Shown one piece after another: positions 161-22,997 of a DNA stretch of 64,000 bases. Where the stretch lies: positions 2,542,001-2,606,000 of the forward strand of contig NZ_CP037423.1 of NCBI RefSeq assembly GCF_007754155.1, in the 5' to 3' direction. A program made the translations under genes and the position numbers. Under the pieces are notes generated by a model. That model had not been told where the DNA came from, ran no database searches, and saw only the letters and a list, made by a program, of their open reading frames with translations. Source of the DNA: Stieleria neptunia. GTDB taxonomy: Bacteria; Planctomycetota; Planctomycetia; Pirellulales; Pirellulaceae. Position 1 is the stretch's first letter, and every line of letters starts with the position of its first letter.

Positions 161-250
161 GGCGAACCAGCGGATGCACGTGAGTCGCCGAGTTGAGTTT
201 GTTGAAGTGGTAAGTCTTTCGCGGCGACCACGTGATCCGTATCGTTCGTG
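161..250 (+). other. attC site 1
   Basis: R'' box GGCGAAC and R' box GTTCGTG bracket an imperfect inverted repeat. The arm GATGCACGTGAGTCGCCG pairs with CGGCGACCACGTGATC, leaving an unpaired G after GAT, as expected for the extrahelical bases that IntI recognises. It lies directly after the stop codon of the partial ORF. Confidence 0.85.
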
Positions 251-676
251 GCGGTAGACGTGGCTGCGATCGACCAACGCCTGTCGTCCATGCTGCTGAT
301 TGGTGCGCTCGAAGTTGGCCCACTTGAAGTCATCGAACCTCCGTTTCCTAGGATTCGCTTTTGATGTCGCGGTTTGACGGGTGCGCGGTCGACTCGGCTG
401 ACGAAGGCAAACCGACGCCTGACGACTTCAGCGCTGGCGACCGACGCCTGACATGCCGGCTGCAGATTGGGACGCTCGGATTTCCCTTGGCAAATCGAAT
501 CGAGTACATTGGCAAGCCGCGACGATGTTCCAAACCGGCGTGCCGACCGACGCCACGAACCCGGCGATGCACCCCAGCACACTCATTGTTGCGATACACA
601 AACTTTCACACCGACCGCCTTCATCACGCTCACGCCATCTCAATCGTAGTGGTCCGTGTGCGAGGTGATCGCTGAT
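251..676 (+). repeat. ORF-less cassette A1
   Basis: Between attC1 and attC2 I see no convincing gene. The stretch 331-421 is a diverged copy of the module that begins with the bases CCTCCGTTTCCT and contains GTGCGCGGTCGACTCGG. The stretch 463-540 matches the pre-attC module seen in other ORF-less cassettes (TTGGGACGCTCG, GAGTACATTGGCAA). Short ORFs here overlap one another in several frames and follow the repeat, so they are treated as noise. Confidence 0.6.
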
Positions 677-683
677 GTTATTT
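554..683 (+). other. attC site 2 (long form)
   Basis: R'' CACGAAC and R' GTTATTT, with arms GCGATGCACC and GGTGATCGC that differ by one extrahelical G. At about 130 bp it is longer than every other attC here (87-93 bp), because the central loop is expanded. Its R' box overlaps a possible ATG (675) for the next gene. Confidence 0.7.
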
Positions 684-698
684 GCACGGACGCTTCCA

Positions 699-1211
699 AT
701 GTTCGCACCCGCTGCCATCCTAAAGACGTTTGTCGCTTTGGTGCTGATCGCGCCCCCGGCATTTGAATCAACTGACGCCACCGTCGCACGGTTGCGATCG
801 CACGGGATCCAGCTCTCCGGCCGAGACCCGTGCGAGGGCACCGGTCTTCATTGTGCGTTGCTTCCTGTCTATACGGCGGGCGACGTTTGCTCTGTCTTTC
901 TACCCCGACGCGGATACACGGTTGCCGATCTTCGTACGCTTTCTCGTCTTACCAACCTGCAGCATGTCCGATCAAATCGGATGCTGTCGGAACGCGAATA
1001 CAACATTCTCAATGCGTCTGTACCCAGAAGCGTATGGCTGTTCTGCAATGTGCGGCTCGATGATGGTACACTCAAGCGGTTGGGCACTCGCTATAGTCGT
1101 CAACCCAACACTTACGAAGACGTAAACGGCGACGGCGTTGTTGACGAACATGATGGATTTGATTCCGCCGCCGGTCCGGCTGTTCCACCGCGTATCGAAA
1201 ACGGCAAATAA
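699..1211 (+). CDS. secreted cassette protein with EF-hand-like C-terminus
   Basis: A 170-residue protein with a hydrophobic N-terminal segment (AILKTFVALVLIAPPAF) that looks like a signal peptide or anchor. Near the C-terminus it has DVNGDGVVDEHDGF, an acidic EF-hand or dockerin-like loop that planctomycete secreted proteins often carry. Several cysteines in the middle fit an extracytoplasmic location. An in-frame ATG at 675 exists but lies inside attC2, so the ATG at 699 is preferred; neither has a clear ribosome binding site. The TAA stop at 1209-1211 forms part of the R'' box of attC3. It is the only gene of its cassette. I do not recognise the family; calcium binding is inferred from the loop alone. 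Confidence 0.6.
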   Translation: MFAPAAILKTFVALVLIAPPAFESTDATVARLRSHGIQLSGRDPCEGTGLHCALLPVYTAGDVCSVFLPRRGYTVADLRTLSRLTNLQHVRSNRMLSEREYNILNASVPRSVWLFCNVRLDDGTLKRLGTRYSRQPNTYEDVNGDGVVDEHDGFDSAAGPAVPPRIENGK

Positions 1212-1298
1212 CCATGAAATGCACGCGAGGACGGGAGTCGCGGTTTTTGGTCTGCTTGCATGTTTTTCGCCCGTCCCGCGTGATTTCTACCGTTCACG
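1206..1298 (+). other. attC site 3
   Basis: R'' AAATAAC (containing the TAA of the preceding gene) and R' GTTCACG. The arms GAAATGCACGCGAGGACGGG and CCCGTCCCGCGTGATTTC are nearly perfect apart from an extrahelical G and A, which makes this one of the clearest attC hairpins in the array. Confidence 0.9.
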
Positions 1299-1971
1299 CT
1301 GCTAGCCGACGCCTGACGACAGCGCCCACTTCTTCTTTTGCGTCTTCTCGCGTTCTCTTGTGGCAATTGATTCGCCGTCGTTTGATCGTGACTCGAAGGT
1401 CGCCCACCGGATGTCATCGAACCTCCGTTTACTGGGTTTCGCATTTGATGTCACGGTTCGATAGGTGCGCGGTCGACTCGGCCGAGGAAGACAAACCGAC
1501 GCCTGTTGATTCGGGTACGAGCACGAGTACCGCGGTGCTGAGTACGAGGGCGGCTTTCAGGCCCGGAGGGCCGGTAGAGTGTCTGCCGGTGGCGTGAGCC
1601 ACCGGGGGTGGATTCAAAGGCACGCCCTAGGCCCAGCGGGTCGACACAATATCCGGGCTTGGAGTGGACCCGGAGCCACATTGTGCCGGCCTTCCAGGCC
1701 TCCGCAAATCCGTTCTTTCGATACCGGTGGCTGACACCACCGGCAAGCATTGTGCCAGCCCTCCGGGCTTCATCCCGACTCCACATAGAAATCGGTTCAG
1801 CGAGGGGAGTGAAAGTTTCCACGGCGATTTCGATGGAGTACATTGGCAAGCAGCGGCGATGGCTCGGGCTGTCGCCATGGCCGGACGCGTGAACCATGTA
1901 GTGCACCGCAGTCGGCGAGTTGAGTTTGTTTTTGAGTTCAGGTCGATCGCGCCGACGCGGTGACCACCGCC
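1299..1971 (+). repeat. ORF-less cassette A2
   Basis: This 670-bp cassette carries no credible gene. It contains, in order: a module with the bases CTTCTTCTTTTGCGTCTTCT (1339 on), the GTGCGCGGTCGACTCGG module (to about 1506), a GAGTAC-rich arm (1512-1551), and a GC-rich dispersed repeat starting GGCCCGGAGGGCCGG (1560 on) with TGTGCCGGCCTTCCAGGCCT. It ends with the pre-attC module. The same order recurs at 17838-18415. Confidence 0.75.
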
Positions 1972-1978
1972 GTTCTGC
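1888..1978 (+). other. attC site 4
   Basis: R'' CGTGAAC and R' GTTCTGC. The arms are TGCACCGCAGTCGGCG and CGCCGACGCGGTG with an unpaired A. The central spacer contains GAGTTTGTTTTTGAGTTCAG. It belongs to the most homogeneous attC subtype, shared by nearly all ORF-less cassettes. Confidence 0.9.
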
Positions 1979-2002
1979 CATGGAGTTTTTGTCCACCACA
2001 AA

Positions 2003-2530: not shown

Positions 2531-2539
2531 CAAGTGAAG

Positions 2540-2630
2540 GCAGAACCAAGCCGTGCACACGAAGGACGGCTTGCGCGGTTTCACCGATGGAAAATCAATC
2601 GTCCGTCCTCGGTGACGGCGGCCGTTCACG
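2540..2630 (+). other. attC site 5
   Basis: R'' GCAGAAC and R' GTTCACG. Arms AAGCCGTGCACACGAAGGACGG and CCGTCCTCGGTGACGGC pair with extrahelical bases. The arm sequence differs from attC4 while size and layout are the same. Confidence 0.9.
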
Positions 2631-3308
2631 CTCCTGAATCGTACTCGTACTTCGGCGTCAGCCGGTACTCGTGCTCGATAGGATGGCAAACAGACCAACA
2701 TCGGTCGGCCACGCTGCTGAACGTTGTGGCTGAACTCGGCCCATCTGATTTCACCAGACCTCTGTTTCCTAAGATTCGCATTTGATGTCACGGTTCGATA
2801 GGTGCGCGGTCGACTCGGCTGATGAAGACAAACCAATGCCTGTCGATTCGAGTAGAAGTACGAGTACCGCGTTGCTGAGTACGAGGACGGCTTTCAGGCC
2901 CGGAGGGCCGGTAGAGTGTCTGCCGGTGGCGTCAGCCACCGGGGGTGGATTCAAAGGAATGCTCAAGGCCCAGCGGGCCGACACAATGCCCGCGTTTGGA
3001 GTGGACCGGGAAACCCATTGTGCCGGCCTTCCAGGCCTCAGCAAATTCGTACTTTCGATACCGGTGGCTGACACCACCGGCAAGCATTGTGCCAGCCCTC
3101 CGGGCTTCATCCCGACTCCACAATGAGATCGGTACAGCAAGGGGAGTGAAATTTCCCAAGGCGATTTCGATGGAGTACATTGGCACAGACCGATGCTGGC
3201 TCGGGCTGTCGTCGTGGCCGACCGCGTGAACCATGTGGTGCACCGCAGTCGGCGAGTGGAGTTTGTTTTTGAGTTCAGGTCGATCGCGCCGACGCGGTGA
3301 CCACCGCC
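2631..3308 (+). repeat. ORF-less cassette A3
   Basis: The cassette starts with a GTACTC-rich arm (2636-2680) and has the inverse GAGTAC-rich arm at 2846-2887, with the GTGCGCGGTCGACTCGG module between them. The GC-rich GGCCCGGAGGGCCGG repeat (2896 on) and the pre-attC module follow. No ORF stands out; minus-strand ORFs across it are repeat-driven and recur in the other copies. Confidence 0.75.
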
Positions 3309-3315
3309 GTTCACG
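3225..3315 (+). other. attC site 6
   Basis: R'' CGTGAAC and R' GTTCACG. Arms GTGGTGCACCGCAGTCGGCG and CGCCGACGCGGTGACCAC with one extrahelical G and one A. Almost identical to attC4 and attC19. Confidence 0.9.
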
Positions 3316-3737
3316 CTGCTAACCGGCGCCTGACGACAGCGTCCACTTCTTCTTTTGCGTCTTCTCGCGTTCTTTTGTGGCAATTGATTTACGGTCGTTT
3401 GATCGTGACCCGAAGGTCGCCCACCGGAATTCGTCGAACCTCCGTTTCCTGGGATTCGCATTTGATGTCATCGTTCGATAGGTGCGCGGTCGACTCGGCC
3501 GAAGAAGACAAACCGACGCCTGTTGATTGCAACGCCGACAACCGACGCCTGAAGTGCCGACCACAGATTGGGACGCTCGATTTCCCACGGCGATTCCGAT
3601 CGAGTACATTGACAAAGAGCGGCAATGGCTCGGGCTGTCGTCGTGGCCGGACGCGTGAACTATGTGGTGCACCGCAGTCGGCGAGTTGAGTTTGTTTTTG
3701 AGATCAGGTCATTCGCGCCGACGCGGTGACCACCGCC
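3316..3737 (+). repeat. ORF-less cassette A4
   Basis: A 420-bp short form: the CTTCTTCTTTTGCGTCTTCT module, the GTGCGCGGTCGACTCGG module and the pre-attC module are present, but the GC-rich GGCCCGGAGGGCCGG repeat is absent. No credible gene. Cassette A6 has a similar layout. Confidence 0.75.
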
Positions 3738-3744
3738 GTTATTG
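3654..3744 (+). other. attC site 7
   Basis: R'' CGTGAAC and R' GTTATTG, same arm sequences as attC6. The spacer has GAGATCAG in place of GAGTTCAG. Confidence 0.9.
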
Positions 3745-3750
3745 GCGTCC

Positions 3751-4068
3751 ATGCCAATGACGTCGCGGTTCAGGCGGTTTGATCCTTTGGGATCGGACCA
3801 CTGGACCAACCTTGATGGACTTGATCAGCCATCAAGTAGAGTACGGCGTTTCGCCGTGCTAATGATCAGTCCGGCTTTCACGAGCAGGATTGATGCCACG
3901 CAGCGATGCCTTGGCATTGTCTGCTTCACTCTCGCTTCGCCGTGGACCGATGGTGCTCGGTGGAACGGGACACGCCGACCCGAGACGGTCGGTTACACTG
4001 TTATTGAACTGCCCGAGAGCAACGCAGACGCACCGATGCGGACGCCCTCCGTGATGGACAGCCAATAA
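3751..4068 (+). CDS. possible cassette ORF, hypothetical
   Basis: A 105-residue ORF starting with ATG 7 bases after attC7 and ending with TAA inside the R'' box of attC8, exactly where a cassette gene is expected. An in-frame TTG at 3742 lies within attC7. The product has no signal peptide, membrane segment or motif I recognise. The N-terminal half overlaps the small inverted repeat AGTACGGCGTTTCGCCGTGCT, so it could be chance coding. The position is the main argument for it. Confidence 0.4.
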   Translation: MPMTSRFRRFDPLGSDHWTNLDGLDQPSSRVRRFAVLMISPAFTSRIDATQRCLGIVCFTLASPWTDGARWNGTRRPETVGYTVIELPESNADAPMRTPSVMDSQ

Positions 4069-4154
4069 CCAGCCGTTGCAGGGGAATTCGCGGTCAAGGT
4101 GCCATGCGAAGGCTTGCTTGTCGGGCGCGAACCCCCTGAACCGCGACGTTCGCC
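4063..4154 (+). other. attC site 8
   Basis: R'' CAATAAC (with the TAA of the preceding ORF) and R' GTTCGCC. Arms GTTGCAGGGGAATTCGCGG and GCGCGAACCCCCTGAACCGC pair with mismatches and one extrahelical base. Confidence 0.8.
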
Positions 4155-5129: not shown

Positions 5130-5140
5130 CGCAGGATCGC

Positions 5141-5230
5141 GGCGAACCATGCCGTGCACACGGAGGACGGCGTCGCGCGTTTAAAAATGGAGAATCCACT
5201 TGCCGTCCCCGGTGACGGCTGCCGTTCGCC
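5141..5230 (+). other. attC site 9
   Basis: R'' GGCGAAC and R' GTTCGCC. Arms GCCGTGCACACGGAGGACGGC and GCCGTCCCCGGTGACGGC, with an extrahelical G. Confidence 0.9.
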
Positions 5231-5244: not shown

Positions 5245-5883
5245 ATGGGACGCAAGATCGCGTGGGTCAGCCTCTTCATGCTGGGCGCTCTTCTGGCCAG
5301 CGACATTGGACTTTCTACCTTCCGCTTGTCAGAGGCAGTGACGCGGAACCCGCTGACTATCGAATTGACATCATTCCTTTCCAGCAACGGCCCCGCTTCT
5401 CTCTATGAGCTCGAGCAAGACTTCCTACTTTTCGCGCCGATAAGCGTCATCGCGGTAATGTCTGGATTGGTCGCTTCGTTGATCCTTTCATACGATCGGG
5501 CAGTTCGCGGTTTTTCATTCTGGGCGGGATATGCGATCGTGCATGCTTGCATGCTTACGTATTACGCGGACATTGAATCCAGATTCGTTACCACAGAGGT
5601 CCTTATCCCATTCGTGATTGGGATATTCTGCACGATTCCCAGCTATGGTGTCGGAATCGAAGTCATCCGTTTGGCGCGAATCGGGTGTCTGCTGACTTGC
5701 TCGCTTAGGGACATGCTCACTCTTACCGGTGCATGTGCTATTCTTGCGTTTGCTTCAATCGCGGATGTGGCTTGGATTTCCACGTGCGTTTTTCTAGCGA
5801 TCGCGATTGCGCTTTATTTACGGCTACACCTTGTATCACGCAAGAGTGGCGAACCAGACGATGCACCTGAGTCGCCGAGTTGA
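5245..5883 (+). CDS. cassette-encoded six-helix membrane protein
   Basis: A 212-residue protein with about six hydrophobic segments (residues 5-25, 50-75, 83-103, 110-133, 150-168 and 172-192). The first Met of the longer frame (5200) lies in attC9, so the ATG at 5245, preceded by AAGAGAG, is chosen. The last residues (GEPDDAPESPS) are encoded by the 5' arm of attC10, so the coding region runs into the recombination site. No transporter signature is visible; family unknown. Confidence 0.7.
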   Translation: MGRKIAWVSLFMLGALLASDIGLSTFRLSEAVTRNPLTIELTSFLSSNGPASLYELEQDFLLFAPISVIAVMSGLVASLILSYDRAVRGFSFWAGYAIVHACMLTYYADIESRFVTTEVLIPFVIGIFCTIPSYGVGIEVIRLARIGCLLTCSLRDMLTLTGACAILAFASIADVAWISTCVFLAIAIALYLRLHLVSRKSGEPDDAPESPS

Positions 5884-5937
5884 GTTTACTGAAGTGGTTG
5901 ATCGCTCGCGGCGACCACGTGATCGTTAACGTTCTGT
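5848..5937 (+). other. attC site 10
   Basis: R'' GGCGAAC and R' GTTCTGT; arms GATGCACCTGAGTCGCCG and CGGCGACCACGTGATC. The stop codon of the preceding gene (5881-5883) is inside the site. Confidence 0.9.
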
Positions 5938-5949: not shown

Positions 5950-6693
5950 ATGCTGAAGTGTTTCCGAATCGACACGCCTTTTCCTCTTCGCATTCCGTTT
6001 CCTAGACGTGGTGTCCCTGACAGCAATTTGCTTCCGCCCACATCTCTTGCATTTGATCCTGACGACGATCGTGGCGTCGTACGGATGATGTTTGCACCTC
6101 CAACGAAATGGGTTGAATGGTCTCGCAAAGATGTTCCAGGCGAATTTCTATGGATGCCGCACGTCCGTACAAAAGTAGACGCGTTTCAATGGTGGAAAGA
6201 GGGATGGATTCATATCGTAGAAAGAAGGGAAACCGGAATGAAAACGAGACTCGATCGGCGTTTGGCCGATGCAAGCGACGACGGCGAGCGAGAGCGCATT
6301 CGAAGCACGTACCAACATTGGTTTTCCGAACAAGAGAACATCTCGCGGCGTCCTGCGGAATGGACGATCGAGCATTGGACGGCTCCCAGCGGTTCTGGAA
6401 TGCGATCTTGGCGCTGTGGCGACGGGATAGCGGTCACGTTTGAATCGCAGGTGCTGGGTTTCGTGCCCGGCAGCCCAGTGCTTCTGCTGATCTCGCCCGA
6501 CTCAGGTGCGATTTATGTTCCGAATGGCGGGCTGGACTTCCTGCACAGCGCCTTTAGCATCGGCAATCCACATGATCTATACTCACCGTCACTGGCAGAT
6601 AAACCTCTAGACGTTACCGACGTCGTTTGGGAACGCGAGGAGGCAACGACAGAACCACGCGATGATACGGAGCGGCGGTGGTCGCCGGTTTGA
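5950..6693 (+). CDS. cassette-encoded hypothetical protein
   Basis: A 247-residue soluble protein rich in Trp and Arg (KWVEWSRKDVPGEFLW, FQWWKEGWIHIVERR). It has an acidic C-terminus that enters attC11 (TEPRDDTERRWSPV). ATG 5950 is 12 bases past attC10; a GTG two codons earlier is also possible. The middle (PVLLLISPDSGAIYVPNG) suggests a beta-rich fold. There is no signal peptide or membrane segment. Not recognised. The stop lies inside attC11. Confidence 0.65.
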   Translation: MLKCFRIDTPFPLRIPFPRRGVPDSNLLPPTSLAFDPDDDRGVVRMMFAPPTKWVEWSRKDVPGEFLWMPHVRTKVDAFQWWKEGWIHIVERRETGMKTRLDRRLADASDDGERERIRSTYQHWFSEQENISRRPAEWTIEHWTAPSGSGMRSWRCGDGIAVTFESQVLGFVPGSPVLLLISPDSGAIYVPNGGLDFLHSAFSIGNPHDLYSPSLADKPLDVTDVVWEREEATTEPRDDTERRWSPV

Positions 6694-6738
6694 AGTGGTT
6701 AGTCAACTGCCGCCGCCCGCATATCGCCACCGTTGAAC
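6649..6738 (+). other. attC site 11, bordering an IS91-type element
   Basis: R'' ACAGAAC and R' GTTGAAC. Arms GCGATGATACGGAGCGGCGG and CCGCCGCCCGCATATCGC pair with two extrahelical bases. The next cassette gene does not follow directly; an IS91-type element intervenes and a second GTTC is found at its far end (9454). Confidence 0.85.
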
Positions 6739-7013
6739 TTAATCGGCAGCGACTTCATTGGCGTGACCGTTTTCTCTTGTCAGTGCGGTGAGTGTGTGAG
6801 GGTCACAACGTGTCTGTCTTTCGGCGCGCCTGTAGGCGCTTTTGCGGTTAGCCAGTTGTGCGCGCTAGGCGTTCTTTCTGTCTCTTTCTTTAAGCCTTGC
6901 CTGGCGTTTTAACTTGCGCTTTTTGCTCGTTGACGCACCCTTGTTGTGTTCCCCGCACGCTGCGGCGCGAACTTCTTTTGAACTCTGTTTCACAACAAGG
7001 ACAAGCAACCGTG

Positions 7014-7934
7014 ATGTCACACAAAAAACGAACCTGCAAACTCACCAAGCGGCTCGCCGAAGACATGATGATCCGCAACATGGCCGAAGCCACCATCGAC
7101 GCCTACACCTATCACGTGCGAAAGTTTGCCGACTTTATCCAAAAACCGCTCGACCAGGCAACCGTCGAAGACGTTAGAACCTTCCAGCTCCATCTGATCC
7201 GAGAACGAAAGCTTGCATACGGATCGTTCAACCAGGCCGTTTGTGCTTTACGGTTTTACTATCGCTACACCCAGCCCATGCCCTGGCCGGTCACGATGGT
7301 TCCCTTCGGCAAACGGCCCAAGAAGCTGCCTACCGTGCTCGGCCGACAAGAAGTCGACCAGCTGATTCAATGCACGGCCAATCTGAAACACCGAACCTTT
7401 CTGATGACGCTCTACTCCGGAGGGCTGCGGTTCGCCGAAGCGGCCAACTTGAGGATCCACGACATCGACTCCAAACGGATGATGATTCGAGTCGCCAATG
7501 GGAAGGGCAAAAAGGAACGCTTGATCCCTCTCTCACCGAGGCTCTTGAAAGAGCTCAGGATCTACTGGCTCAAGTACAAGCCGACCGACTTGTTGTTCCC
7601 GGGAAAGATTCCGGGAAAACCCTACGCCGACACCACGATTCGCAAAGCGATGAAGGATGCAGGGGAGAAGGCGGGGATCAAACGCAGGATTTATCCTCAT
7701 GTCCTGAGACACTCCTACGCGACGGGACTGCTGGAAGCTGGCGTGGACCTGTTGACGATCAGCAAGCTCCTTGGTCACGCGAGCTTCATCACGACGATGG
7801 TCTATCTGCATTGCCGCCGGGAGCACCTGCACAGTGCCCCGAGTCCACTGGACTGGTTGCCGGTCAAGCAACTTCCGACTTACACGCCGCCGACGGAGAA
7901 CGGCGAACAGGACGATTCAGGCAAGAAAAGCTAA
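7014..7934 (+). CDS. tyrosine recombinase of the IS91-type element
   Basis: A 306-residue XerC/D-like recombinase. An N-terminal SAM-like core-binding domain (residues about 10-95, IDAYTYHVRKFADFI) precedes the catalytic domain. All catalytic residues are visible: Arg in SGGLRFAEA, Lys in NGKGKKERL, HxxR in HVLRHSYAT, His in LGHAS and Tyr in TTMVYLHC. It lacks the extra helix insert between the Arg and HxxR boxes that marks integron integrases, so it is not IntI. Start ATG 7014 (GTG 7011 adjacent) follows AAGGACAAG. It overlaps the start of the transposase reading frame, and such pairs are common in this IS91 subgroup. Its role in transposition is not established. Confidence 0.9.
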   Translation: MSHKKRTCKLTKRLAEDMMIRNMAEATIDAYTYHVRKFADFIQKPLDQATVEDVRTFQLHLIRERKLAYGSFNQAVCALRFYYRYTQPMPWPVTMVPFGKRPKKLPTVLGRQEVDQLIQCTANLKHRTFLMTLYSGGLRFAEAANLRIHDIDSKRMMIRVANGKGKKERLIPLSPRLLKELRIYWLKYKPTDLLFPGKIPGKPYADTTIRKAMKDAGEKAGIKRRIYPHVLRHSYATGLLEAGVDLLTISKLLGHASFITTMVYLHCRREHLHSAPSPLDWLPVKQLPTYTPPTENGEQDDSGKKS

Positions 7935-8002
7935 CCGTCCATCAACTCATTCGTCGCGGTGCTGAACGTTACGTCAACGAGCACCGCGACGGGGGAGCCA
8001 GC

Positions 8003-9361
8003 ATGACGGTCCAAAGCGTGTTGGCCAAGACCAGCCTCTGCCGTACTTCGGCACTCGGTGGTCGTTGGTATCAGTGTGATGATTGTGATCGCCTGACGAA
8101 ACGACACAACTCCTGTGGCGATCGGCACTGTCCGCAATGTAGTGGCGGAAAACGCCAGAACTTCTCCGATAGAGCTTCGAAACTGATCCTCGACGGTGTG
8201 AACTACTACCAAGTCGTCTTCACGTTGCCGGAGGTGGTCTCGACGATGGCACTGGCGAATCGTCAAGAGATCGCGGAGTTGCTGTTCCACTCTGCTTGGA
8301 AGTCTCTCAAAAAGACGGTTGAAACAGAACAGCAATATGAGCTCGCTGCGCTGATGGTGCTTCACACCTGGAACCAGAAGCTGGATGCTCATTGGCATGT
8401 TCACGCATTGGTTCCGGGGGCGGGGCCCAGTTTAAGCGATGGAGGTTGGATTAAAGCCAGGGCGCCGCAAGTCGACGGCTATGAAGATGACCGCCAGTAC
8501 CTCGTCGATGCGATCAATCTTCGAAGATCGTTTCGGAAGATCGCGGTGGCTCACCTACAGCGTCTTCGTAAGAACGACAAATTGAAACTCGACGGCTCGC
8601 TGGCGTATCTGCAAGGTGACGAAGCCTGGGAGGAGATGATCGATCAGCTCGAATCAAAGGAATGGGTCAGCTACATCGAACCCCCTCCGACCGAAAGCAG
8701 TCGCGGCGAGCACGTGGTTCGTTACTTAACGCGTTATCTGACCGGTGGGCCGATCAGTGACTACCGCATCATCGCCGCGGACGACCACGAGGTCACATTT
8801 TGGGCCCGCGAAGGCCGCACCACCGGTGGTGAATCGCTTCAAGTTCCGTTCACTCTCTCGACATCGGAGTTCATCCGTCGCTGGTGCCTGCACATTCTGC
8901 CAAAAGAGTTGACCAAAACACGTCAGTTTGGAGGCTGGTCGAATACAAAAGCTGAAGAATATCTCGCGAAGTGCCGAGCGTCACTCACCGATGCCGACCG
9001 ATCGCAGGCGGGGACTCTCGACTTGCTCTCTGATGAAGTCGACTCGGTCGAGGCCGAGCCCGAATCGACGTTGTGCTGTGAGCACTGTGGCAGCGAATCG
9101 CTTCGTCTGACGCACGAGTATGAGAAGCGACCGTGGAGCGAAATCTTCCGGCGGGACTCGAAAGATAGCCCACTTTGGTACCGCGAGAGTCAAGAAAAAG
9201 ATGACATTCGCTTTTGGGACGGGGCAATGGGTGAGGGCTTTTCGGAATGGTACGCGTGGTATCTGAAAAGTGGCATTGAAAGTGCAAGGGAGCGGACGGC
9301 CCCCGAAACCGCACCCGAATCAAACGCCAGAGCTGGCACGCGGCAACTGCAGCTATTCTAA
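8003..9361 (+). CDS. tnpA: IS91-family HUH transposase
   Basis: A Rep-like single-strand transposase. The N-terminus has a four-Cys zinc finger (CDDC, CGDRHCPQC), followed by the HUH motif in AHWHVHALVPGAG. The catalytic tyrosine region is YLTRYLTGGPISDYRI. A C-terminal CEHCG motif may be a second metal site. The first ATG in frame is 8003. Homology-like sequence (TVHQLIRRGAERYVNEH) continues upstream to about 7932, where the recombinase ends, and no standard start is available there, so translation may be coupled or frameshifted. The frame is also open further upstream, as an overlap of the recombinase gene. Full length for the family. Confidence 0.92.
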   Translation: MTVQSVLAKTSLCRTSALGGRWYQCDDCDRLTKRHNSCGDRHCPQCSGGKRQNFSDRASKLILDGVNYYQVVFTLPEVVSTMALANRQEIAELLFHSAWKSLKKTVETEQQYELAALMVLHTWNQKLDAHWHVHALVPGAGPSLSDGGWIKARAPQVDGYEDDRQYLVDAINLRRSFRKIAVAHLQRLRKNDKLKLDGSLAYLQGDEAWEEMIDQLESKEWVSYIEPPPTESSRGEHVVRYLTRYLTGGPISDYRIIAADDHEVTFWAREGRTTGGESLQVPFTLSTSEFIRRWCLHILPKELTKTRQFGGWSNTKAEEYLAKCRASLTDADRSQAGTLDLLSDEVDSVEAEPESTLCCEHCGSESLRLTHEYEKRPWSEIFRRDSKDSPLWYRESQEKDDIRFWDGAMGEGFSEWYAWYLKSGIESARERTAPETAPESNARAGTRQLQLF

Positions 9362-9410
9362 TAGCGGTCTACCCGAACCCGGCCAAGTCGAGCCGACAAA
9401 CTTCAACGCA

Positions 9411-9447
9411 CGATCTATCCCTGCACGTCCCGTGCCCGGATAGATCG
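9411..9447 (+). other. oriIS-like hairpin of the IS91-type element
   Basis: The 10-base arms CGATCTATCC and GGATAGATCG are perfect complements. They enclose a second 5-base stem (GCACG/CGTGC). The structure ends six bases before GTTC, matching the layout of IS91 replication-origin ends. Confidence 0.65.
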
Positions 9448-9513
9448 CATTTCGTTCCCCGAAAGAGTCGCACTCTACTTTTGGATCCAACGTTGCACTG
9501 ACGCTTTAGCCCC

Positions 9514-10104: not shown

Positions 10105-10195
10105 GGGGAACCATCCGATGCACCCGAGTCGCCGAGTCGGGCGTTTTGAAAATGGAAGATCTCTCGCGGCGACCGGGTGATCGGTACCGTTATCG
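10105..10195 (+). other. attC site 12
   Basis: R'' GGGGAAC and R' GTTATCG. Arms CCGATGCACCCGAGTCGCCG and CGGCGACCGGGTGATCGG. Confidence 0.9.
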
Positions 10196-10729: not shown

Positions 10730-10820
10730 CGATAACAACGCGATGCACGACGAGTCACCGAGTCGTGGTTTTTGAAGTGGATGATCACTCGCGGCGACCG
10801 CGTGATCGCAGACGTTCCCC
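10730..10820 (+). other. attC site 13
   Basis: R'' CGATAAC and R' GTTCCCC. Arms GCGATGCACGACGAGTCACCG and CGGCGACCGCGTGATCGC pair with one mismatch and extrahelical bases. Confidence 0.85.
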
Positions 10821-12615: not shown

Positions 12616-12705
12616 GGGGAACCATCCGATGCACCGAAGGACCGGGCATCGCGTTTTGACAATGGAAACTCAACCGCCGGTCCTCGGTGATCGGTACCGT
12701 TCGTC
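12616..12705 (+). other. attC site 14
   Basis: R'' GGGGAAC and R' GTTCGTC. Arms CCGATGCACCGAAGGACCGG and CCGGTCCTCGGTGATCGG. Confidence 0.9.
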
Positions 12706-13199: not shown

Positions 13200-13289
13200 G
13201 ACGAACCATGCGATTCACACGAAGCACCGCATGACGGTTTTACAAATGGAAACCACATTGGCGGTGCTCGGTGATCGCCGCCGTTCGTC
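13200..13289 (+). other. attC site 15
   Basis: R'' GACGAAC and R' GTTCGTC. Arms GCGATTCACACGAAGCACCGC and GCGGTGCTCGGTGATCGC. Confidence 0.9.
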
Positions 13290-13768: not shown

Positions 13769-13858
13769 GACGAACCATGGCATGAACCGAAGTGGCGGAG
13801 TCGTGGTTTTTGAAGTGGAGAATCGTTCGCCGCCACTCGGTTATGCCTACCGTTCGTC
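13769..13858 (+). other. attC site 16
   Basis: R'' GACGAAC and R' GTTCGTC. Arms GGCATGAACCGAAGTGGCGG and CCGCCACTCGGTTATGCC. Confidence 0.9.
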
Positions 13859-14328: not shown

Positions 14329-14418
14329 GACGAACCATCGGTTGCAACGGAGGCCGCGAGTAGACGTTCTTGAAGTGGTTGATTTCGCGTCGCCGCCGCG
14401 TGATCCTTATCGTTCACG
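14329..14418 (+). other. attC site 17
   Basis: R'' GACGAAC and R' GTTCACG. Arms CGGTTGCAACGGAGGCCGCG and CGTCGCCGCCGCGTGATCC pair with several mismatches, a more diverged site than its neighbours. Confidence 0.8.
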
Positions 14419-14857
14419 TTCCCAAATCGTACTCGTACTCGTACTCAGGCGTCAGCCGGTACTCCTACTCGTACTCGACTGGAAGGCAAACAAACCGATG
14501 CCGGACGCCCACGCTGCTGAACGTTGTGACTGAACTCGGCCCACCTGATGTCATCGAACCTTCGTTTCCTAAGATTCGCATTCGATGTCACGGTTCGATA
14601 GGTGCGCGGTCGACTCGGCCGACGAAGACAAACCGACGCCAGTCGATGCCAACGCTGACTACCAACCCCTGAAGTGCCGACCACAGATTGGGACGCTCGA
14701 TTTCCCACGACGATTCCGATCGAGTACATTGGCAAACAGCGGCGATGGCTCGGGCTGTCGTCGTGGCCGACCGCGTGAACCAAGTGGTGCACCGCAGTCG
14801 GCGAGTTGAGTTTGTTTTTGAGTTCAGGTCGATCGCGCCGACGCGGTGACCACCGCC
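14419..14857 (+). repeat. ORF-less cassette A5
   Basis: Begins with a GTACTC-rich arm (14425-14480), then the GTGCGCGGTCGACTCGG module (14562-14645) and the pre-attC module with TTGGGACGCTCGATTTCCCA. The inverse GAGTAC arm seen in A3 is missing. No credible ORF. Confidence 0.75.
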
Positions 14858-14864
14858 GTTCACG
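14774..14864 (+). other. attC site 18
   Basis: R'' CGTGAAC and R' GTTCACG, arms GTGGTGCACCGCAGTCGGCG and CGCCGACGCGGTGACCAC, the ORF-less-cassette subtype. Confidence 0.9.
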
Positions 14865-15325
14865 CTGCTAACCGGCGCCTGACGACAGCGCCCACTTCTT
14901 CTTTTGCGTCTTCTCGCGTTCTTTTGTGGCAAGCGATTTACTGTCGTTTGATCGTGACCCGAAGGTCGCCCACCGGATGTCATCGAACCTCCGTTTCCTG
15001 GGTTTCGCATTTGAGGTCACGGTTCGATAGGTGCGCGGTCGACTCGACCGACGAAGACAAACCGGCGCCTGTTGATCGAGTACGAGCACGAGTACCGCGA
15101 TGCTGAGTACGAGTACGATTCAAGACAGACCGACGCCTGAAGTGCCGACCGCAGATTGGGACACTCGATTTCCCACGGCGATTCCGATCGAGTACATTGA
15201 CAAACAGCGGCGATGGAACGGGCTGTCGTCGTGGCCGAACGCGTGAACCATGTGGTGCACCGCAGTCGGCGAGTCGAGTTTGTTTTTGAGTTCAGGTCGA
15301 TCGCGCCGACGCGGTGACCACCGCC
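14865..15325 (+). repeat. ORF-less cassette A6
   Basis: Holds the CTTCTTCTTTTGCGTCTTCT module, the GTGCGCGGTCGACTCGG module, a GAGTAC-rich arm (15073-15118) and the pre-attC module, directly after the similar cassette A5. No credible ORF. Confidence 0.75.
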
Positions 15326-15332
15326 GTTCTGG
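15242..15332 (+). other. attC site 19
   Basis: R'' CGTGAAC and R' GTTCTGG, same arms as attC6. Confidence 0.9.
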
Positions 15333-15845: not shown

Positions 15846-15926
15846 AGGAAACCAGAACCAAGCCGTGCACCTGAGGACGGCTTGCGCGGTTTCACAAGTG
15901 GAAAATCACTCGTCCGTCCCAGGTGA
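15414..15926 (+). CDS. four-helix-bundle (S23/TIGR02436-like) protein, start codon unclear
   Basis: The frame from 15414 reads IFDHDRLDVYRFSIEYVASS and continues ARDQWLRAAQSIPLNIAEGN and FLDIARGSALECVAIQDVL, the hallmark helices of four-helix-bundle proteins (PF05635/TIGR02436). These occur in 23S rRNA intervening sequences and as the Avd protein of diversity-generating retroelements. The family normally starts with Met just before Phe; here the codon is ATC and no ATG, GTG or TTG precedes it before the stop at 15336. The first standard start, TTG 15492, would remove helix 1. The C-terminus has EYEYRDAEYEYEYD from a GAGTAC repeat and then runs into attC20. It may be a decayed gene. Confidence 0.75.
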   Translation: MFDHDRLDVYRFSIEYVASSFAAARDLSDCHRHARDQWLRAAQSIPLNIAEGNGKRSLKDRSRFLDIARGSALECVAIQDVLAATDGLDVERHHELKRSLHRIVSMLTRLIARSDAVAESPVEYNAGTEYEYRDAEYEYEYDQGRKPEPSRAPEDGLRGFTSGKSLVRPR

Positions 15927-15941
15927 CGGCAACCGTTATCG
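15852..15941 (+). other. attC site 20
   Basis: R'' CCAGAAC and R' GTTATCG. Arms AAGCCGTGCACCTGAGGACGG and CCGTCCCAGGTGACGGC. The C-terminus of the preceding frame is encoded inside the site. Confidence 0.9.
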
Positions 15942-15969: not shown

Positions 15970-16581
15970 ATGCCATGGCAATACCAAACTCCGCCGGACC
16001 TTACGACCGCTGATGAGCGGTTCGCACATTTTCGGTCAATCATGGACAGGCGCGCTGCCGACTTGCAGCAGGTGGGCTGGCGTCAACTGTCGCCGGTCGA
16101 GGACGCGCAACTCGAGGCAAAATTGCGAATCCGCTACCCATTAGACAACTCCCAGCCACCTGAACCGCACGCGACATGGGATATATCCGTAATCTACGCA
16201 TCGGAATCTAATTACACCGAATTGGAGACAGACCTCAACCTGCGAATGCTGGAAGCGCTGCGTGAATGCACCGAGCCAACTGAAGAAATATATGCGATAG
16301 ACTGGCAGCATGATTGGTACAGCTTCAATCCTCATAATCTTCGATCAGATGGGGCACCGTATGAATGGGCAGTTCCAATTCTTCCCGACGGCGATTTCTA
16401 CCTGTTCATTCCAAATGACCACCGCTTTGGGGTTTACGGATTCCCGCAAACCAATTCGATCGTGATCTGTGGCCACGAATTTCTCGCCGCCATTGATTCA
16501 AATCCACCCAAAGTGTTTTCCCGTCGGCTCACTGATTGTCGCTCACACGTCCCACCGAAACGCACGATAACAAAGCCGTGA
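15970..16581 (+). CDS. DUF2716 family protein
   Basis: A 203-residue soluble protein. The conserved core of DUF2716 is clear: WDISVIYASESNYTELETDL, then IYAIDWQHDWYSFNPH, and EWAVPILPDGDFYLFIPNDH followed by RFGVYGFPQTNSIVICG. Length and domain order fit a complete family member; its biochemical function is unknown. The frame is open further upstream through attC20, but ATG 15970, 29 bases after the R' box, is the sensible start. The stop lies within attC21. Confidence 0.82.
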   Translation: MPWQYQTPPDLTTADERFAHFRSIMDRRAADLQQVGWRQLSPVEDAQLEAKLRIRYPLDNSQPPEPHATWDISVIYASESNYTELETDLNLRMLEALRECTEPTEEIYAIDWQHDWYSFNPHNLRSDGAPYEWAVPILPDGDFYLFIPNDHRFGVYGFPQTNSIVICGHEFLAAIDSNPPKVFSRRLTDCRSHVPPKRTITKP

Positions 16582-16654
16582 ACCGGAGCACTCAATCACG
16601 CGGCAACTGAAATCAAAGTCTTCCGTTCGTTCCCGGTTACGGCAGGCGTTCCTC
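16565..16654 (+). other. attC site 21
   Basis: R'' CGATAAC and R' GTTCCTC. Arms GCCGTGAACCGGAGCACTC and GTTCGTTCCCGGTTACGGC with two extrahelical bases. The stop of the DUF2716 gene is inside the site. Confidence 0.82.
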
Positions 16655-17186: not shown

Positions 17187-17277
17187 GAGGAACCAAGTGG
17201 TGCACCGCAGTCGGCGAGTTGAGTTTATTTTTGAGTTCAGGTCACTCGCGCCGACGCGGTGACCACCGCCGTTCCCC
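17187..17277 (+). other. attC site 22
   Basis: R'' GAGGAAC and R' GTTCCCC. The arms are those of the ORF-less-cassette subtype (TGCACCGCAGTCGGCG), although the preceding cassette has a gene. Confidence 0.9.
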
Positions 17278-18415: not shown

Positions 18416-18506
18416 CGTGAACTAAGTGGTGCACCGCAGTCGGCGAGTGGAGTTTGTTTTTGAGTTCTGGTCCATCGCGCCGACGCGATGACCACCGCCG
18501 TTCACG
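18416..18506 (+). other. attC site 23
   Basis: R'' CGTGAAC and R' GTTCACG, arms TGCACCGCAGTCGGCG and CGCCGACGCGATG; ORF-less-cassette subtype. Confidence 0.9.
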
Positions 18507-19445
18507 CTGCTGCCCCACGCCTGACGACAGCGTCCACTTCTTCTTTTGTGTCTTCTTGTGCTTTTTGTGGCACGTGATCTGCGGCGGTTTGACTGGTGCG
18601 CTGACGTACTCGCTGGAAGGGGCTCACGCAAAGTCGCAAAGCCGCAAAGATTAGAACCCATTCCTTGGCGGCTTTGCGTGGTCCTTGTTCCCCTTGACCA
18701 CGCTGATGCCGCAATGAGTACGCAGCGAACTGCGCCCACCGGATTTCGTCAGACCTCTGTTTCCTGGGATTCGCATTTGATGTCACCGTTCGGTAGGTGC
18801 GCGGTCGACTCGGCCGAGGAAAACGAACCGACGCCCGAAATGGTGACTGCTTAGCGTTTCCGAATCCGAAGGGATCGGTGGAGCGGATTTGGCTGGCGGG
18901 GCGATGTGTCTTAGGCCCGGAGGGCCGGTGAAGTGTCTGCCGGTGGCGTCAGCCCAATGCCATCTACTTTGACGCCAAGCGGGGTGTTTTTGTTAGCGGT
19001 AGGGCGCGAGCCCTCCGGTCTTTCACGGTGTTTTTGAAGCGCAACCGGACGACTCGTGCCATTCCGCTAACACCTCTCGTGCCAAAGTAGATGGCATTGG
19101 GCGTCAGCCATCGGGGGTGGATTCAAAGGAATCCCCAAGGCCCAGCGGGTCGACACAATGCCCGGCTTGGAGTGGACCGGGAGCCCCATTGTGCCGGCCT
19201 TTCAGGCCTCAGCAAATCCGTTCTTTCGATACCGGTGGCTGTTGCCACCGGCAAGCATTGTGCCAGCCCTCCGGGCTTCATCGCGACTTCAAGAAGAAAT
19301 CGGTACAGCAAGGCGGGTGAAATTTCCCTCGATGATTCCGATCGAGTACATTGGCCGTCAGCGGCGATGGTTCGGTGCACCGCAGTCGGTGAGTCGAGTT
19401 TGTTTTTGAGTTCAGGTCCATCGCGCCGACGCGGTGACCACCGCC
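18507..19445 (+). repeat. ORF-less module A8 with a MITE, fused to the next gene
   Basis: The usual ORF-less modules, but with an inserted stretch rich in GCAAAGTCGCAAAGCCGCAAAG (18629 on) and a 149-bp MITE (18953-19101) inside the GC-rich repeat. It ends in an attC remnant, so it is locked to the gene at 19478. Confidence 0.7.
18953..19101 (+). mobile_element. MITE copy 1, 149 bp
   Basis: Perfect 19-bp terminal inverted repeats (CCCAATGCCATCTACTTTG) and a 6-bp direct repeat CGTCAG on both sides (18947-18952 and 19102-19107). The interior contains the dispersed GGGCGCGAGCCCTCCGG repeat and no ORF. Confidence 0.82.
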
Positions 19446-19452
19446 GTTCGTC
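19374..19452 (+). other. attC remnant lacking R'' (copy 1)
   Basis: Compared with attC23, a deletion of about 38 bases removed the R'' box and the first part of the left arm: the sequence passes from GCGGCGATGGTTC straight to GGTGCACCGCAGTCGG. The right half and R' GTTCGTC are intact. Without R'' the hairpin cannot form the R box, so this site should be dead for IntI. Confidence 0.8.
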
Positions 19453-19477
19453 GCAAATGGTGATTCCGCCATCCTCA

Positions 19478-19924: not shown

Positions 19925-19926
19925 TG

Positions 19927-20017
19927 GACGAACCATGGATTGCAACGAAGTGCTCGATCGGCTGTTTCACCTCGCGTAGAATCAACTGCTCGCACTCGCT
20001 GAATCCGAACGTTCACG
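19927..20017 (+). other. attC site 24
   Basis: R'' GACGAAC and R' GTTCACG. Arms GGATTGCAACGAAGTGCTCG and TGCTCGCACTCGCTGAATCC. Confidence 0.88.
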
Positions 20018-20832
20018 CTGACAACCGGCGTCTGACGACAGCGCCCACTTCTTCTTTTGCGTCTTCTCGCGTTCTTTTGTGGCAATTGATTTGCTGTCGT
20101 TTGATCGTGGCCCGAAGGGCGCCCACCGGAATTCGTCGAACCTCCGTTTCCTGGGTTTCGCATTTGACGTCACCGTTCGCTAGGTGCGCGGTCGACTCGG
20201 CCGAGGAAAACGAACTGACGCCCGAAATGGTGACTGCTTAGCGTTTCCGAATCCGAAGGGATCGGTGGAGCGGATTTGGCTGGCGGGGCGATGTGTCTTA
20301 GGCCCGGAGGGCCGGTGAAGTGTCTGCCGGTGGCGTCAGCCCAATGCCATCTACTTTGACGCCAAGCGGGGTGTTTTTGTTAGCGGTAGGGCGCGAGCCC
20401 TCCGGTCTTTCACGGTGTTTTTGAAGCGCAACCGGACGACTCGTGCCATTCCGCTAACACCTCTCGTGCCAAAGTAGATGGCATTGGGCGTCAGCCATCG
20501 GGGGTGGATTCAAAGGAATCCCCAAGGCCCAGCGGGTCGACACAATGCCCGGCTTGGAGTGGACCGGGAGCCCCATTGTGCCGGCCTTTCAGGCCTCAGC
20601 AAATCCGTTCTTTCGATACCGGTGGCTGACGCCACCGGCAAGCATTGTGCCAGCCCTCCGGGCTTCATCGCGACTTCAAGAAGAAATCGGTACAGCAAGG
20701 CGGGTGAAATTTCCCTCGATGATTCCGATCGAGTACATTGGCCGTCAACGGCGATGGTTCGGTGCACCGCAGTCGGTGAGTCGAGTTTGTTTTTGAGTTC
20801 AGGTCCATCGCGCCGACGCGGTGACCACCGCC
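20018..20832 (+). repeat. ORF-less module A9 with MITE, fused to the next gene
   Basis: Second copy of the A8-type module within the tandem repeat, but with the standard CTTCTTCTTTTGCGTCTTCT 5' part. The MITE is at 20340-20488 and the module ends in the second attC remnant. Confidence 0.75.
20340..20488 (+). mobile_element. MITE copy 2
   Basis: Identical position within the second tandem unit, same 19-bp terminal repeats and CGTCAG flanks. It was copied by the tandem duplication, not by a new insertion. Confidence 0.82.
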
Positions 20833-20839
20833 GTTCGTC
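20761..20839 (+). other. attC remnant lacking R'' (copy 2)
   Basis: Same deletion as the remnant at 19374, with one base change upstream (CGTCAACGGCG). R' GTTCGTC is kept. Confidence 0.8.
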
Positions 20840-20864
20840 GCAAAAGGTGATTCCGCCATCCTCA

Positions 20865-21311
20865 ATGAACCTTTTCTACATACTCGCTCACGGGCATTCG
20901 TTCGACGTCGAACGGTTTATTGGGAGTTCAACGTTGATACCGTCACTGACGTGGAATGTCGGACAGCGGTCGCACGGAATGGTTCGGGCAGATACGGACG
21001 GGTTTATCATTTACCTCACTGAGGAAGCACTTGGCTATCAAGCTCAGCAGACAATAGCGGTGGAATTCATCCGTAAGAATCAGGAGGAACTACGACGCTG
21101 TTGTAACTTTCCAGGAGTCGACTACTTTCTGCTTTCACTTCATGTCGTGTTGCCGCTAACCGATTCGACTTTCGGCTTTGGGGCGAATGCGAATATGGAT
21201 CTGCTTGAAGCGTGTGTAGGAGTAGGACTTAACCCAACCATATTCGTTGAATTCGACCGTGGGACTGGCGATTCCAATTTGCTTGACACGAATCAAGGCA
21301 ACGCCGAATAA
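20865..21311 (+). CDS. duplicated cassette protein, copy 2
   Basis: Same 148-residue product as at 19478-19924. The one difference I noted within the gene (T to G in the Val codon of VVLPL, 21150) is silent. The two copies each sit in a complete cassette with its own attC, so one could be excised alone. Confidence 0.75.
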   Translation: MNLFYILAHGHSFDVERFIGSSTLIPSLTWNVGQRSHGMVRADTDGFIIYLTEEALGYQAQQTIAVEFIRKNQEELRRCCNFPGVDYFLLSLHVVLPLTDSTFGFGANANMDLLEACVGVGLNPTIFVEFDRGTGDSNLLDTNQGNAE

Positions 21312-21313
21312 TG

Positions 21314-21404
21314 GACGAACCATGGATTGCAACGAAGTGCTCGATCGGCTGTTTCACCTCGCGTAGAATCAACTGCTCGCACTCGCTGAATCCGAACGTT
21401 CACG
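21314..21404 (+). other. attC site 25
   Basis: Identical to attC24: R'' GACGAAC and R' GTTCACG. Confidence 0.88.
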
Positions 21405-22257
21405 CTGACAACCGGCGTCTGACGACAGCGCCCACTTCTTCTTTTGCGTCTTCTCGCGTTCTTTTGTGGCAATTGATTTGCTGTCGTTTGATCGTGGCCC
21501 GAAGGGCGCCCACCGGAATTCGTCGAACCTCCGTTTCCTGGGTTTCGCATTTGACGTCACCGTTCGCTAGGTGCGCGGTCGACTCGGCCGAGGAAAACGA
21601 ACTGACGCCCGAAATGGTGACTGCTTAGCGTTTCCGAATCCGAAGGGATCGGTGGAGCGGATTTGGCTGGCGGGGCGATGTGTCTTAGGCCCGGAGGGCC
21701 GGTGAAGTGTCTGCCGGTGGCGTCAGCCCAATGCCATCTACTTTGACGCCAAGCGGGGTGTTTTTGTTAGCGGTAGGGCGCGAGCCCTCCGGTCTTTCAC
21801 GGTGTTTTTGAAGCGCAACCGGACGACTCGTGCCATTCCGCTAACACCTCTCGTGCCAAAGTAGATGGCATTGGGCGTCAGCCATCGGGGGTGGATTCAA
21901 AGGAATCCCCAAGGCCCAGCGGGTCGACACAATGCCCGGCTTGGAGTGGACCGGGAGCCCCATTGTGCCGGCCTTTCAGGCCTCAGCAAATCCGTTCTTT
22001 CGATACCGGTGGCTGACGCCACCGGCAAGCATTGTGCCAGCCCTCCAGGCTTCATCGCGACTTCACAAAGAAATCGGTCCAACAAGGGGAGTGAAGTTTT
22101 TCAAGGCGATTCCGATGGGGTACATTGGCACAGAGCGGCGATGGCTCGGGCTGTCGTCGTGGCCGGACGCGCGAACCATCCGCCCGCACACGCAGGCACG
22201 GAGTCGGCGTCAATCGAAAACGCAATGTCGTTCGCCGTGCCGCGGTGAACGTTGGAC
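21405..22257 (+). repeat. ORF-less cassette A10 with MITE
   Basis: The third tandem unit. It follows copies 1 and 2 to about 22045, then has its own pre-attC module (TACATTGGCACAGAGCGG) and a normal attC. It carries the MITE at 21727-21875 but no gene. Confidence 0.75.
21727..21875 (+). mobile_element. MITE copy 3
   Basis: Same 19-bp terminal repeats and CGTCAG flanks as copies 1 and 2, within the third tandem unit. Confidence 0.82.
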
Positions 22258-22264
22258 GTTCTGT
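22170..22264 (+). other. attC site 26
   Basis: R'' CGCGAAC and R' GTTCTGT. Arms CCCGCACACGCAGGCACGG and CCGTGCCGCGGTGAACG with extrahelical bases. The arms differ from those of the ORF-less subtype although the preceding sequence is that of an ORF-less cassette, which suggests a hybrid. Confidence 0.8.
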
Positions 22265-22285
22265 CACTTGGAGAACCTTTACGCA

Positions 22286-22906
22286 ATGGCACTACCGATT
22301 GACTTGTGGCTGATTCATCCAGAAGCGGAAATGTGCGATGCGTTCCGCGATCGCTTCGAAGGACTACCACGTGTCACGGTCATTCAATCACGTTTCGAGG
22401 ATTTGCCACCGCACGACTGCTTCGTTACCGCTGCAAACGCATTCGGAATCATGAATGCTGGCATCGACGCTGCCGTCGTTCGATTTCATGGTGACGAATT
22501 GATGCGTCGCGTGCAGGCTCGAATCATGGATGAATACCTTGGCGAACAACCGATCGGCACCTCATTCATCGAATCCACTGGCACTGCTGGCTATCCATTC
22601 ATTGCTCACTCTCCAACAATGCGGGTTCCGGGATCAATTGAGGGCACCGACAAAGTGTATGCCGCAACATGGGCATCGCTTCTTGCGGTCTACCGCCACA
22701 AAGCTTCAAGCCAAACGCAGATCGAGACAGTGGTGTTTCCTGCCATGGGGGCGGGGTTCGGCGGTGTGCCCTTCCTTGAGGTCGCCCGGCAAATGGCTGT
22801 CGCATACCGACACTATCTCAGCCCGCCGCATCGAATGGATTGGGACATGGTTGCTGGCCGACAGCGAGCGATACACTATGATGGCAAGCGTCAGGTCAGC
22901 AGATGA
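22286..22906 (+). CDS. macrodomain protein
   Basis: A 206-residue protein made of a single macrodomain. The ADP-ribose-binding elements are visible: CFVTAANAFGIMNAGIDAAVV (the N-A-x-G-x-M-x-x-G-I-D loop), AHSPTMRVPGSI, and the glycine-rich VVFPAMGAGFGGVPF. This type of macrodomain binds or hydrolyses ADP-ribose derivatives and occurs in ADP-ribosylation toxin-antitoxin and phage-defence settings; no partner toxin is seen here. GGAG lies upstream of ATG 22286. The open frame upstream is repeat sequence. It is the last gene of the array, furthest from the presumed integrase. Confidence 0.88.
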   Translation: MALPIDLWLIHPEAEMCDAFRDRFEGLPRVTVIQSRFEDLPPHDCFVTAANAFGIMNAGIDAAVVRFHGDELMRRVQARIMDEYLGEQPIGTSFIESTGTAGYPFIAHSPTMRVPGSIEGTDKVYAATWASLLAVYRHKASSQTQIETVVFPAMGAGFGGVPFLEVARQMAVAYRHYLSPPHRMDWDMVAGRQRAIHYDGKRQVSR

Positions 22907-22910
22907 CGGG

Positions 22911-22997
22911 ACAGAACCATCGCGTGTATCCGAGTACGCGAGTCGGCGTTTATGAGTTGAAATCTTCTCGCGTACCGGGTGACGCGTGCCGTTGAAC
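22911..22997 (+). other. attC site 27, last of the array
   Basis: R'' ACAGAAC and R' GTTGAAC. Arms CGCGTGTATCCGAGTACGCG and CGCGTACCGGGTGACGCG. No attC-like structure is seen downstream, so this marks the distal end of the cassette array. Confidence 0.88.

Follow-up and report, generated by a model that had tools for sequence, protein, structure and literature searches.

A cassette array with an attI-like leader and no integrase gene of its own on the chromosome of Stieleria neptunia

The array at the locus

The window, that is, the whole stretch of 64,000 nucleotides analyzed here, covers positions 2542001-2606000 of the single-contig Stieleria neptunia chromosome of 10,975,817 bases (genome G000), and it holds most of an array of integron gene cassettes. 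A covariance model (R1), made from 25 hand-picked sites of the window that were aligned and folded on the bottom strand, called 29 attC sites at 161-22997, all in a single orientation. A preliminary description of the window had counted 27 such sites in one orientation, with AAC and GTT ends and one or two unpaired bases in the arms; the ends, and unpaired bases on one arm, were seen in the alignment and the fold, and the model raised the count to 29, with the 130-bp site included and the orientation uniform.

The whole array has 39 attC sites (genome 2535029-2564997), ten of which lie upstream of the window, and its cassette genes read on the plus strand. It starts at an attI-like leader at genome 2533494-2533607 (112.9 bits with a second model, R2, described below), 8.4 kb before the window, with the boxes TTGAAC-N17-TAAGAT and the GTT insertion point at 2533602-2533604; the first cassette occupies genome 2533605-2535115. 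Beyond the leader are two transposase-like reading frames, which we take to be IS110-like and IS630-like. A tblastn search with the G000 integrase (IntI) over 60 kb upstream of the window showed no intI match. Thus, the earlier view that this is a chromosomal integron array with its 5' end upstream of position 1 was borne out; the intI that had been placed upstream was not found there, and the only intact one detected lies 6.5 Mb away.

The locus has repeated, folded attC sites in uniform orientation and cassette units ending at GTT, as an array should, and it lacks the adjacent intI of a complete integron. With at least two attC sites and no neighboring intI, it also has the form of a cluster of attC sites lacking an integron integrase (CALIN), and the similarity and position of the sequence at its start make that sequence a putative attI. 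The window's array is a real integron cassette array without its own intI. The features are listed below in window coordinates; all attC sites were called by R1.

161..22997, plus: cassette array part, 29 of 39 attC (R1)
161..250, minus: attC, 92.8 bits
554..683, minus: attC, long (130 bp), 34.3 bits, outside the training set; closes ORF-less-family cassette 247-679 (ORF, open reading frame)
1206..1298, minus: attC
1888..1978, minus: attC
2540..2630, minus: attC
3225..3315, minus: attC
3654..3744, minus: attC; closes ORF-less-family cassette 3312-3740
4063..4154, minus: attC
5141..5230, minus: attC
5848..5937, minus: attC
6649..6738, minus: attC, GTT end abuts the IS91/tyrosine-recombinase element
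6735..9456, plus: type-1 element, 2722 bp, tyrosine recombinase and IS91-family transposase genes, exactly at the attC crossover; one of 10 copies
7014..7934, plus: tyrosine recombinase gene of the type-1 element (PF00589; TIGR02249 178 bits, below the cut-off of 265)
8003..9361, plus: IS91-family transposase gene (NF033538 259 bits, above the cut-off of 125)
9405..9456, plus: right end of the type-1 element, AAC...GTT hairpin (z about -6 on either strand)
10105..10195, minus: attC
10730..10820, minus: attC
11108..12028, minus: ISAzo13-family transposase within a cassette (family models)
12616..12705, minus: attC
13200..13289, minus: attC
13769..13858, minus: attC
14329..14418, minus: attC
14774..14864, minus: attC; closes ORF-less-family cassette 14415-14860
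15242..15332, minus: attC; closes ORF-less-family cassette 14861-15328
15852..15941, minus: attC
15970..16581, plus: cassette gene, DUF2716 (Pfam)
16565..16654, minus: attC
17187..17277, minus: attC
18416..18506, minus: attC
19363..19452, minus: attC, degenerate R'' end, 51 bits, outside the training set
19927..20017, minus: attC
20750..20839, minus: attC, degenerate R'' end, 51 bits, outside the training set
21314..21404, minus: attC, copy of 19927-20017, outside the training set
22170..22264, minus: attC
22286..22906, plus: last cassette gene, macro domain (Pfam)
22911..22997, minus: last attC of the array

Window positions 18726-21799 consist of three tandem repeats with a period of 1387 bases, 97% identical.

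The repeats are attC sites

Since R1 was built from sites of the window, its scores on those sites are no test: 25 of the 29 formed the training set, and one of the other four (21314-21404) copies a training site. Independent support came from 272 further attC sites that the model found elsewhere on the chromosome, and 20 stretches outside the arrays, 400 kb in all, gave no match at E<=1. When the bottom-strand fold was applied, 92.2% of 500 cells were paired, as compared with 67.5% after shuffling and 29-43% in slid controls, and 15 of the 20 pairs had changed on both sides. The fold is strongly backed by this covariation, and the reading of the repeats as attC sites folded on the bottom strand was upheld. 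A scan against Rfam at gathering thresholds gave no match. At one further locus (L034:14734-14908) two attC sites stand directly in tandem, forming a cassette that consists of an attC alone.

Twelve arrays and one intact intI

In a chromosome-wide search with R1, 150 of 6448 candidates were scored and the fetched stretches were then scanned. The results showed 301 attC sites (270 of them at >=40 bits) in 12 arrays that span 262 kb, or 2.4% of the chromosome, with uniform orientation within each array; an isolated match at 6521679 (42 bits) was left out of the count. Because only these candidates were scored, 12 is a lower bound and further small arrays may exist. Arrays without intI reach 44 attC sites. 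The model also matched all 12 other genomes of the genus that were searched (16 to at least 150 sites each) and two of seven genomes from other families of the order (1 and 8 sites).

The one intact IntI gene found is on the minus strand at 9036705-9038063, a distance of 6.5 Mb from the window. A separate array of 61 attC sites adjoins it, and intI, leader and array have the usual divergent layout there. The protein scores 379 bits with TIGR02249 (cut-off 265) and 266 bits with NF011946 (below the cut-off of 435), and it could be aligned through the catalytic half to IntI4, the structure of which has been solved; the TIGR02249 score and this alignment identify it as an integron integrase. Its conserved R, HxxR, H and Y are presumably the catalytic residues. 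A search of the genome with this protein at E<=1e-30 returned the gene itself alone, and only one of the chromosome's tyrosine recombinase matches is an IntI. The protein is 99% identical to an IntI of Stieleria sedimenti. About 135 extra N-terminal residues precede the start of the integron integrase model, and most of this extension aligns in a dozen or so planctomycete IntI proteins and in two proteins from proteobacterial metagenome-assembled genomes (L124 and L136).

According to PMC11023631, integron arrays are oriented so that the recombinogenic strand lies on the leading-strand template. In G000, the genome covered by our count, nine of 11 arrays agreed with this rule (binomial p 0.033), and the intI array was one of the two exceptions. 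The origin was placed roughly by the GC skew of sampled stretches, and the 5.39-Mb array was excluded as being too near the terminus; the skew samples of two other genomes, G001 and G012, were too noisy to place an origin. The two best DnaA-domain matches of G000 lie at 118-582 and 4772059-4772526, and the stronger one is a long way from the origin that GC skew roughly placed near position 1.

Two types of attI-like leader

The sequence between the start of intI and the first cassette recurs at the starts of other arrays, and we refer to it as the type-A leader. An alignment of 20 copies from six genomes (115 columns) showed mostly conserved TTGAC and TAnnAT boxes, separated by a variable spacer of about 17 bases; 19 of the 20 copies end in GTT, after which differing cassettes follow. 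For these promoter-like boxes, candidates for a Pc, a consensus promoter scan made one call at the intI leader and none at the window's leader. The possibility of a conserved hairpin in the leader was dropped, as covariation was weak (energy term +0.56; double change in two of 14 pairs).

Model R2 was made from the type-A leader, and 150 of 2767 candidates were scored in the genome search. It found seven leaders in G000 (six at 95-130 bits and one, at the 2.715-Mb array, at 30.4 bits), that is, at seven of the 12 arrays, and further ones in G001 (nine), G012 (six) and five other genomes, so that eight of the 14 genus genomes were positive. In G000, G001 and G012, which are the three single-contig genomes with type-A leaders, all 22 leaders lie upstream of an attC in the right orientation and at most 2.7 kb away, one of them overlapping it. 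Since five genomes have the type-A leader at a distance of 162-163 bp from an intact intI, we call it attI. Weak R2 matches were seen beside the intI of G010 and of some more distant planctomycetes.

A second leader, type B, was sought within the fetched loci. It is about 140 bp long, ends in AAACAAGTT, and was found at three arrays (1.216, 1.439 and 8.197 Mb), none of which has a type-A leader. In total, 10 of the 12 arrays have a leader, of two unrelated types (seven A and three B). The type-B sequence also adjoins a second integrase lineage in G001 (IntI-B), which is 43% identical to the first (IntI-A). No intact IntI-B was found in G000 by the same search that detected it in G001; tblastn did reveal IntI-B fragments beside two of the three type-B leaders, 88% identical over 68 residues near 8.198 Mb and 86% over 37 residues near 1.2154 Mb. 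Thus, two arrays at least were once complete integrons and have since lost intI. In G001, where IntI-B is intact, partial pieces closer to IntI-A (53-70% identical) adjoin two arrays with weak type-A leaders. In another genome, G003, a single chromosome gave six IntI-like matches, of which three had almost the same score, and no type-A leader was found.

Cassettes shared between arrays

Among 289 cassettes, 72 fell into 20 clusters (>=95% identity and >=90% length), and 18 of these clusters span more than one array, so that near-identical cassettes stand in arrays separated by megabases. There were 108 cross-array pairs at >=95% identity, and 88 of them have no homologous neighbor on either side. 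In the 103 pairs with both sites, the median identity was 0.96 for the cassettes' own attC and 0.55 for the upstream attC, as compared with 0.57 for random pairs. Since the own attC sites are alike, the upstream ones resemble random pairs and the neighbors differ, the pattern is that of movement of single cassettes bounded by attC and not of duplication of blocks. Over its 1511 bp, the first cassette of the window's array does not differ at any base from the cassette that comes first beside intI, and two more identical copies are found in the 9.84-9.88-Mb array; this unit carries an IS91-type transposase gene and includes the attC beyond that gene.

Most of the cassette proteins had been described as unrecognizable, and the Pfam comparison agreed: with transposon genes excluded, three of 15 cassette ORFs passed the cut-off (DUF6985, DUF2716 and a macro domain). 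PADLOC gave no defense-gene match for 10 cassette ORFs. The largest cassette family has 67 members in eight arrays (four in the window), is 427-506 bp long and has no ORF. Coding was considered for this family and rejected: at most one stop was present in the best frame in 28 of the 67 members, and 85 of 98 internal deletions were not multiples of three. The ORF-less cassettes are perhaps promoter or RNA cassettes.

IS91-family elements at the attC crossover

Two types of IS91-family element accompany the arrays. Type 1 combines a tyrosine recombinase gene with an IS91 transposase gene and has an AAC...GTT hairpin at its right end. Eight of the 10 copies are 2717 or 2722 bp long, one is 4046 bp, and for one no right end was found in the stretch. 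In eight of the 10, the left end follows directly after the GTT of an attC, in the same direction and with no base between. The two copies outside arrays are preceded by CGTT, and no convincing attC was found at them even with filters off. Diverged copies in G003 (five) and G004 (two) all lie at an attC GTT in the seven cases that could be tested; a copy in G006 has just eight bases of flank. Type 2, a transposase gene alone, has eight copies. Six of these come after an attC and the other two after a type-A leader, and in all eight cases an attC stands next on the far side.

If the copies were independent, which copies moved as cassettes are not, chance would place them in this way, within 2.4% of the chromosome, with a probability of about 5e-12 (type 1) or 1e-13 (type 2). 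IS91-family elements stand exactly at the attC crossover in three species. An empty site for the type-1 element was sought with the downstream segments of nine of the 10 copies, and no element-free relative was found in the fetched stretches. The insertion may be the work of IntI, acting on the terminal hairpin, of the recombinase that the element encodes, or of the IS91 transposase, with CGTT as target.

Explanation and alternatives

We think it likely that the window contains most of one array of a distributed chromosomal integron, which has a leader, lacks an intI of its own and is served in trans by a distant IntI. The array would have lost, or never have had, its own intI; cassettes would enter at its leader and move among this and at least 11 other arrays via folded attC sites, and the one intact IntI, 6.5 Mb away, would drive the recombination. 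Given the one intact intI found on the chromosome and the traces left by single cassettes moving from array to array, the arrays behave as parts of a single distributed integron would, and the simplest arrangement is that one IntI, the activity of which is predicted from these patterns, serves them in trans. Action of IntI in trans on the window's leader would fit this picture, as would expression driven by the leader's promoter-like boxes. The window's array may be a former complete integron that lost intI, although no remnant was seen at this type-A array.

Several observations weigh against this reading. The cassettes' own attC reaches >=0.95 identity in 64 of the 103 pairs (the upstream attC in eight), 20 of the 108 pairs do have a homologous neighbor, and many pairs come from one 21-member cluster, within which pairs are not independent. 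The shared 1511-bp first cassette has its own transposase gene and could have moved itself. R2 found no type-A leader in the single-contig genomes G003 and G011, though IntI is present in both, and it was negative beside the intI of G003, G004, G006, G007 and G011; the type-A leader is therefore not universal. The leader of the 2.715-Mb array is weak, no leader of either type was found at the 5.39- and 10.44-Mb arrays, tblastn revealed no IntI-A remnant beside the type-A leaders that lack intI, and the promoter scan did not call the boxes of the window's leader.

The possibility exists that these are ordinary CALINs, in which IntI insertions at secondary, attG-like sites found arrays that then grow by attC x attC recombination, the leaders playing no part. 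An origin of CALINs by off-target insertion has been proposed, and attG sites have been reported as targets of insertion (PMC8618304 and PMC12444791); the two arrays without a detected leader would fit. We consider this explanation unlikely, since 10 of the 12 arrays begin at a conserved leader that adjoins intI in other genomes, and IntI-B fragments lie beside two of the leaders. It is quite improbable, too, that the arrays are dead remnants of a number of old integrons and have stood still since each lost its intI. The IntI fragments in G000 and the partial IntI matches beside arrays in G001 and G012 speak for such an origin; single cassettes that are near-identical across arrays, in 18 of 20 clusters, and the identical first cassettes of the window's array and the intI array speak against it.

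Dispersal of the arrays by IS91-family rolling-circle transposition (ISCR-like one-ended events) instead of by IntI appears very improbable. In its favor, eight of 10 type-1 and eight of eight type-2 copies lie in arrays or at a leader; the shared units, however, are mostly single cassettes with their own attC, only one cross-array cluster in 18 matches the IS91 cassette in length, and the first cassette contains an IS91 gene in just two of the 10 leader-headed arrays, the other eight being 474-923 bp long.

The reading of a distributed integron served in trans can be extended to the genus. On this broader proposal the genus keeps a distributed integron with many attI-plus-promoter platforms, at least two unrelated attI types and a surviving intI acting in trans, with cassettes flowing among all platforms and IS91/tyrosine-recombinase elements landing at the attC crossover, perhaps by mimicking attC with their AAC...GTT hairpin. 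We regard the chances of its being correct as about even.

The usual picture of an integron is a single integrase with one entry site and one array. On a chromosome where ten leaders are accompanied by one integrase, it becomes testable whether multiplied entry sites give several high-expression positions, and whether IntI acts across megabases. For two arrays, the origin of a CALIN can be traced to the loss of an intI of which fragments remain. Through the IS91 elements at attC crossovers, rolling-circle transposases and tyrosine recombinases are connected with hairpin recombination sites, and these elements provide a natural example of an integron site serving as the target of a transposon.

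Comparison with known systems

Integrons themselves are well known, and intI loss, several intI genes per genome and CALINs are already in print (PMC2426708, PMC8618304 and PMC12444791). The new elements here are the layout, ten leaders of two types with one integrase, and the association of IS91 with attC. In the literature searched, with most subscription papers outside its scope, we found no case of several attI-led arrays with one intI, no report of IS91 elements targeting attC, and no paper on Stieleria and integrons together.

There is a close likeness to the sedentary chromosomal integrons of the Vibrio cholerae type (PMC11023631): a long array, similar attC sites, mostly unknown small proteins and, at the 9.04-Mb platform, the divergent layout of intI, leader and array. 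Unlike them, the present chromosome has 12 arrays, ten with a leader and one with an intact intI. CALINs, found at seven loci in Xanthomonas and described as mobilizable in trans by an IntI (PMC12444791), are similar in having attC arrays away from intI. The arrays here differ in reaching 44 attC sites without intI and in being mostly headed by conserved attI-like leaders, of which the consulted part of that paper makes no mention for CALINs.

The IS91 elements have their own parallels. IS1111-attC insertion sequences were reportedly described by Tetu and Holmes in 2008 and by Post and Hall in 2009. This group also targets one end of attC, using a DEDD-type transposase (PMC11187229), whereas IS91-family elements at the crossover GTT were found here. 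An IS91-like transposase gene that ends at an attC is known from ISCR28, for which passive shuffling as a cassette was suggested (PMC12772301), and our type 2 is alike in this respect. In contrast with ISCR28, eight type-2 copies occupy attI/attC positions of chromosomal arrays here, and in type 1 a tyrosine recombinase gene is present, while R1 recognizes no attC in it.

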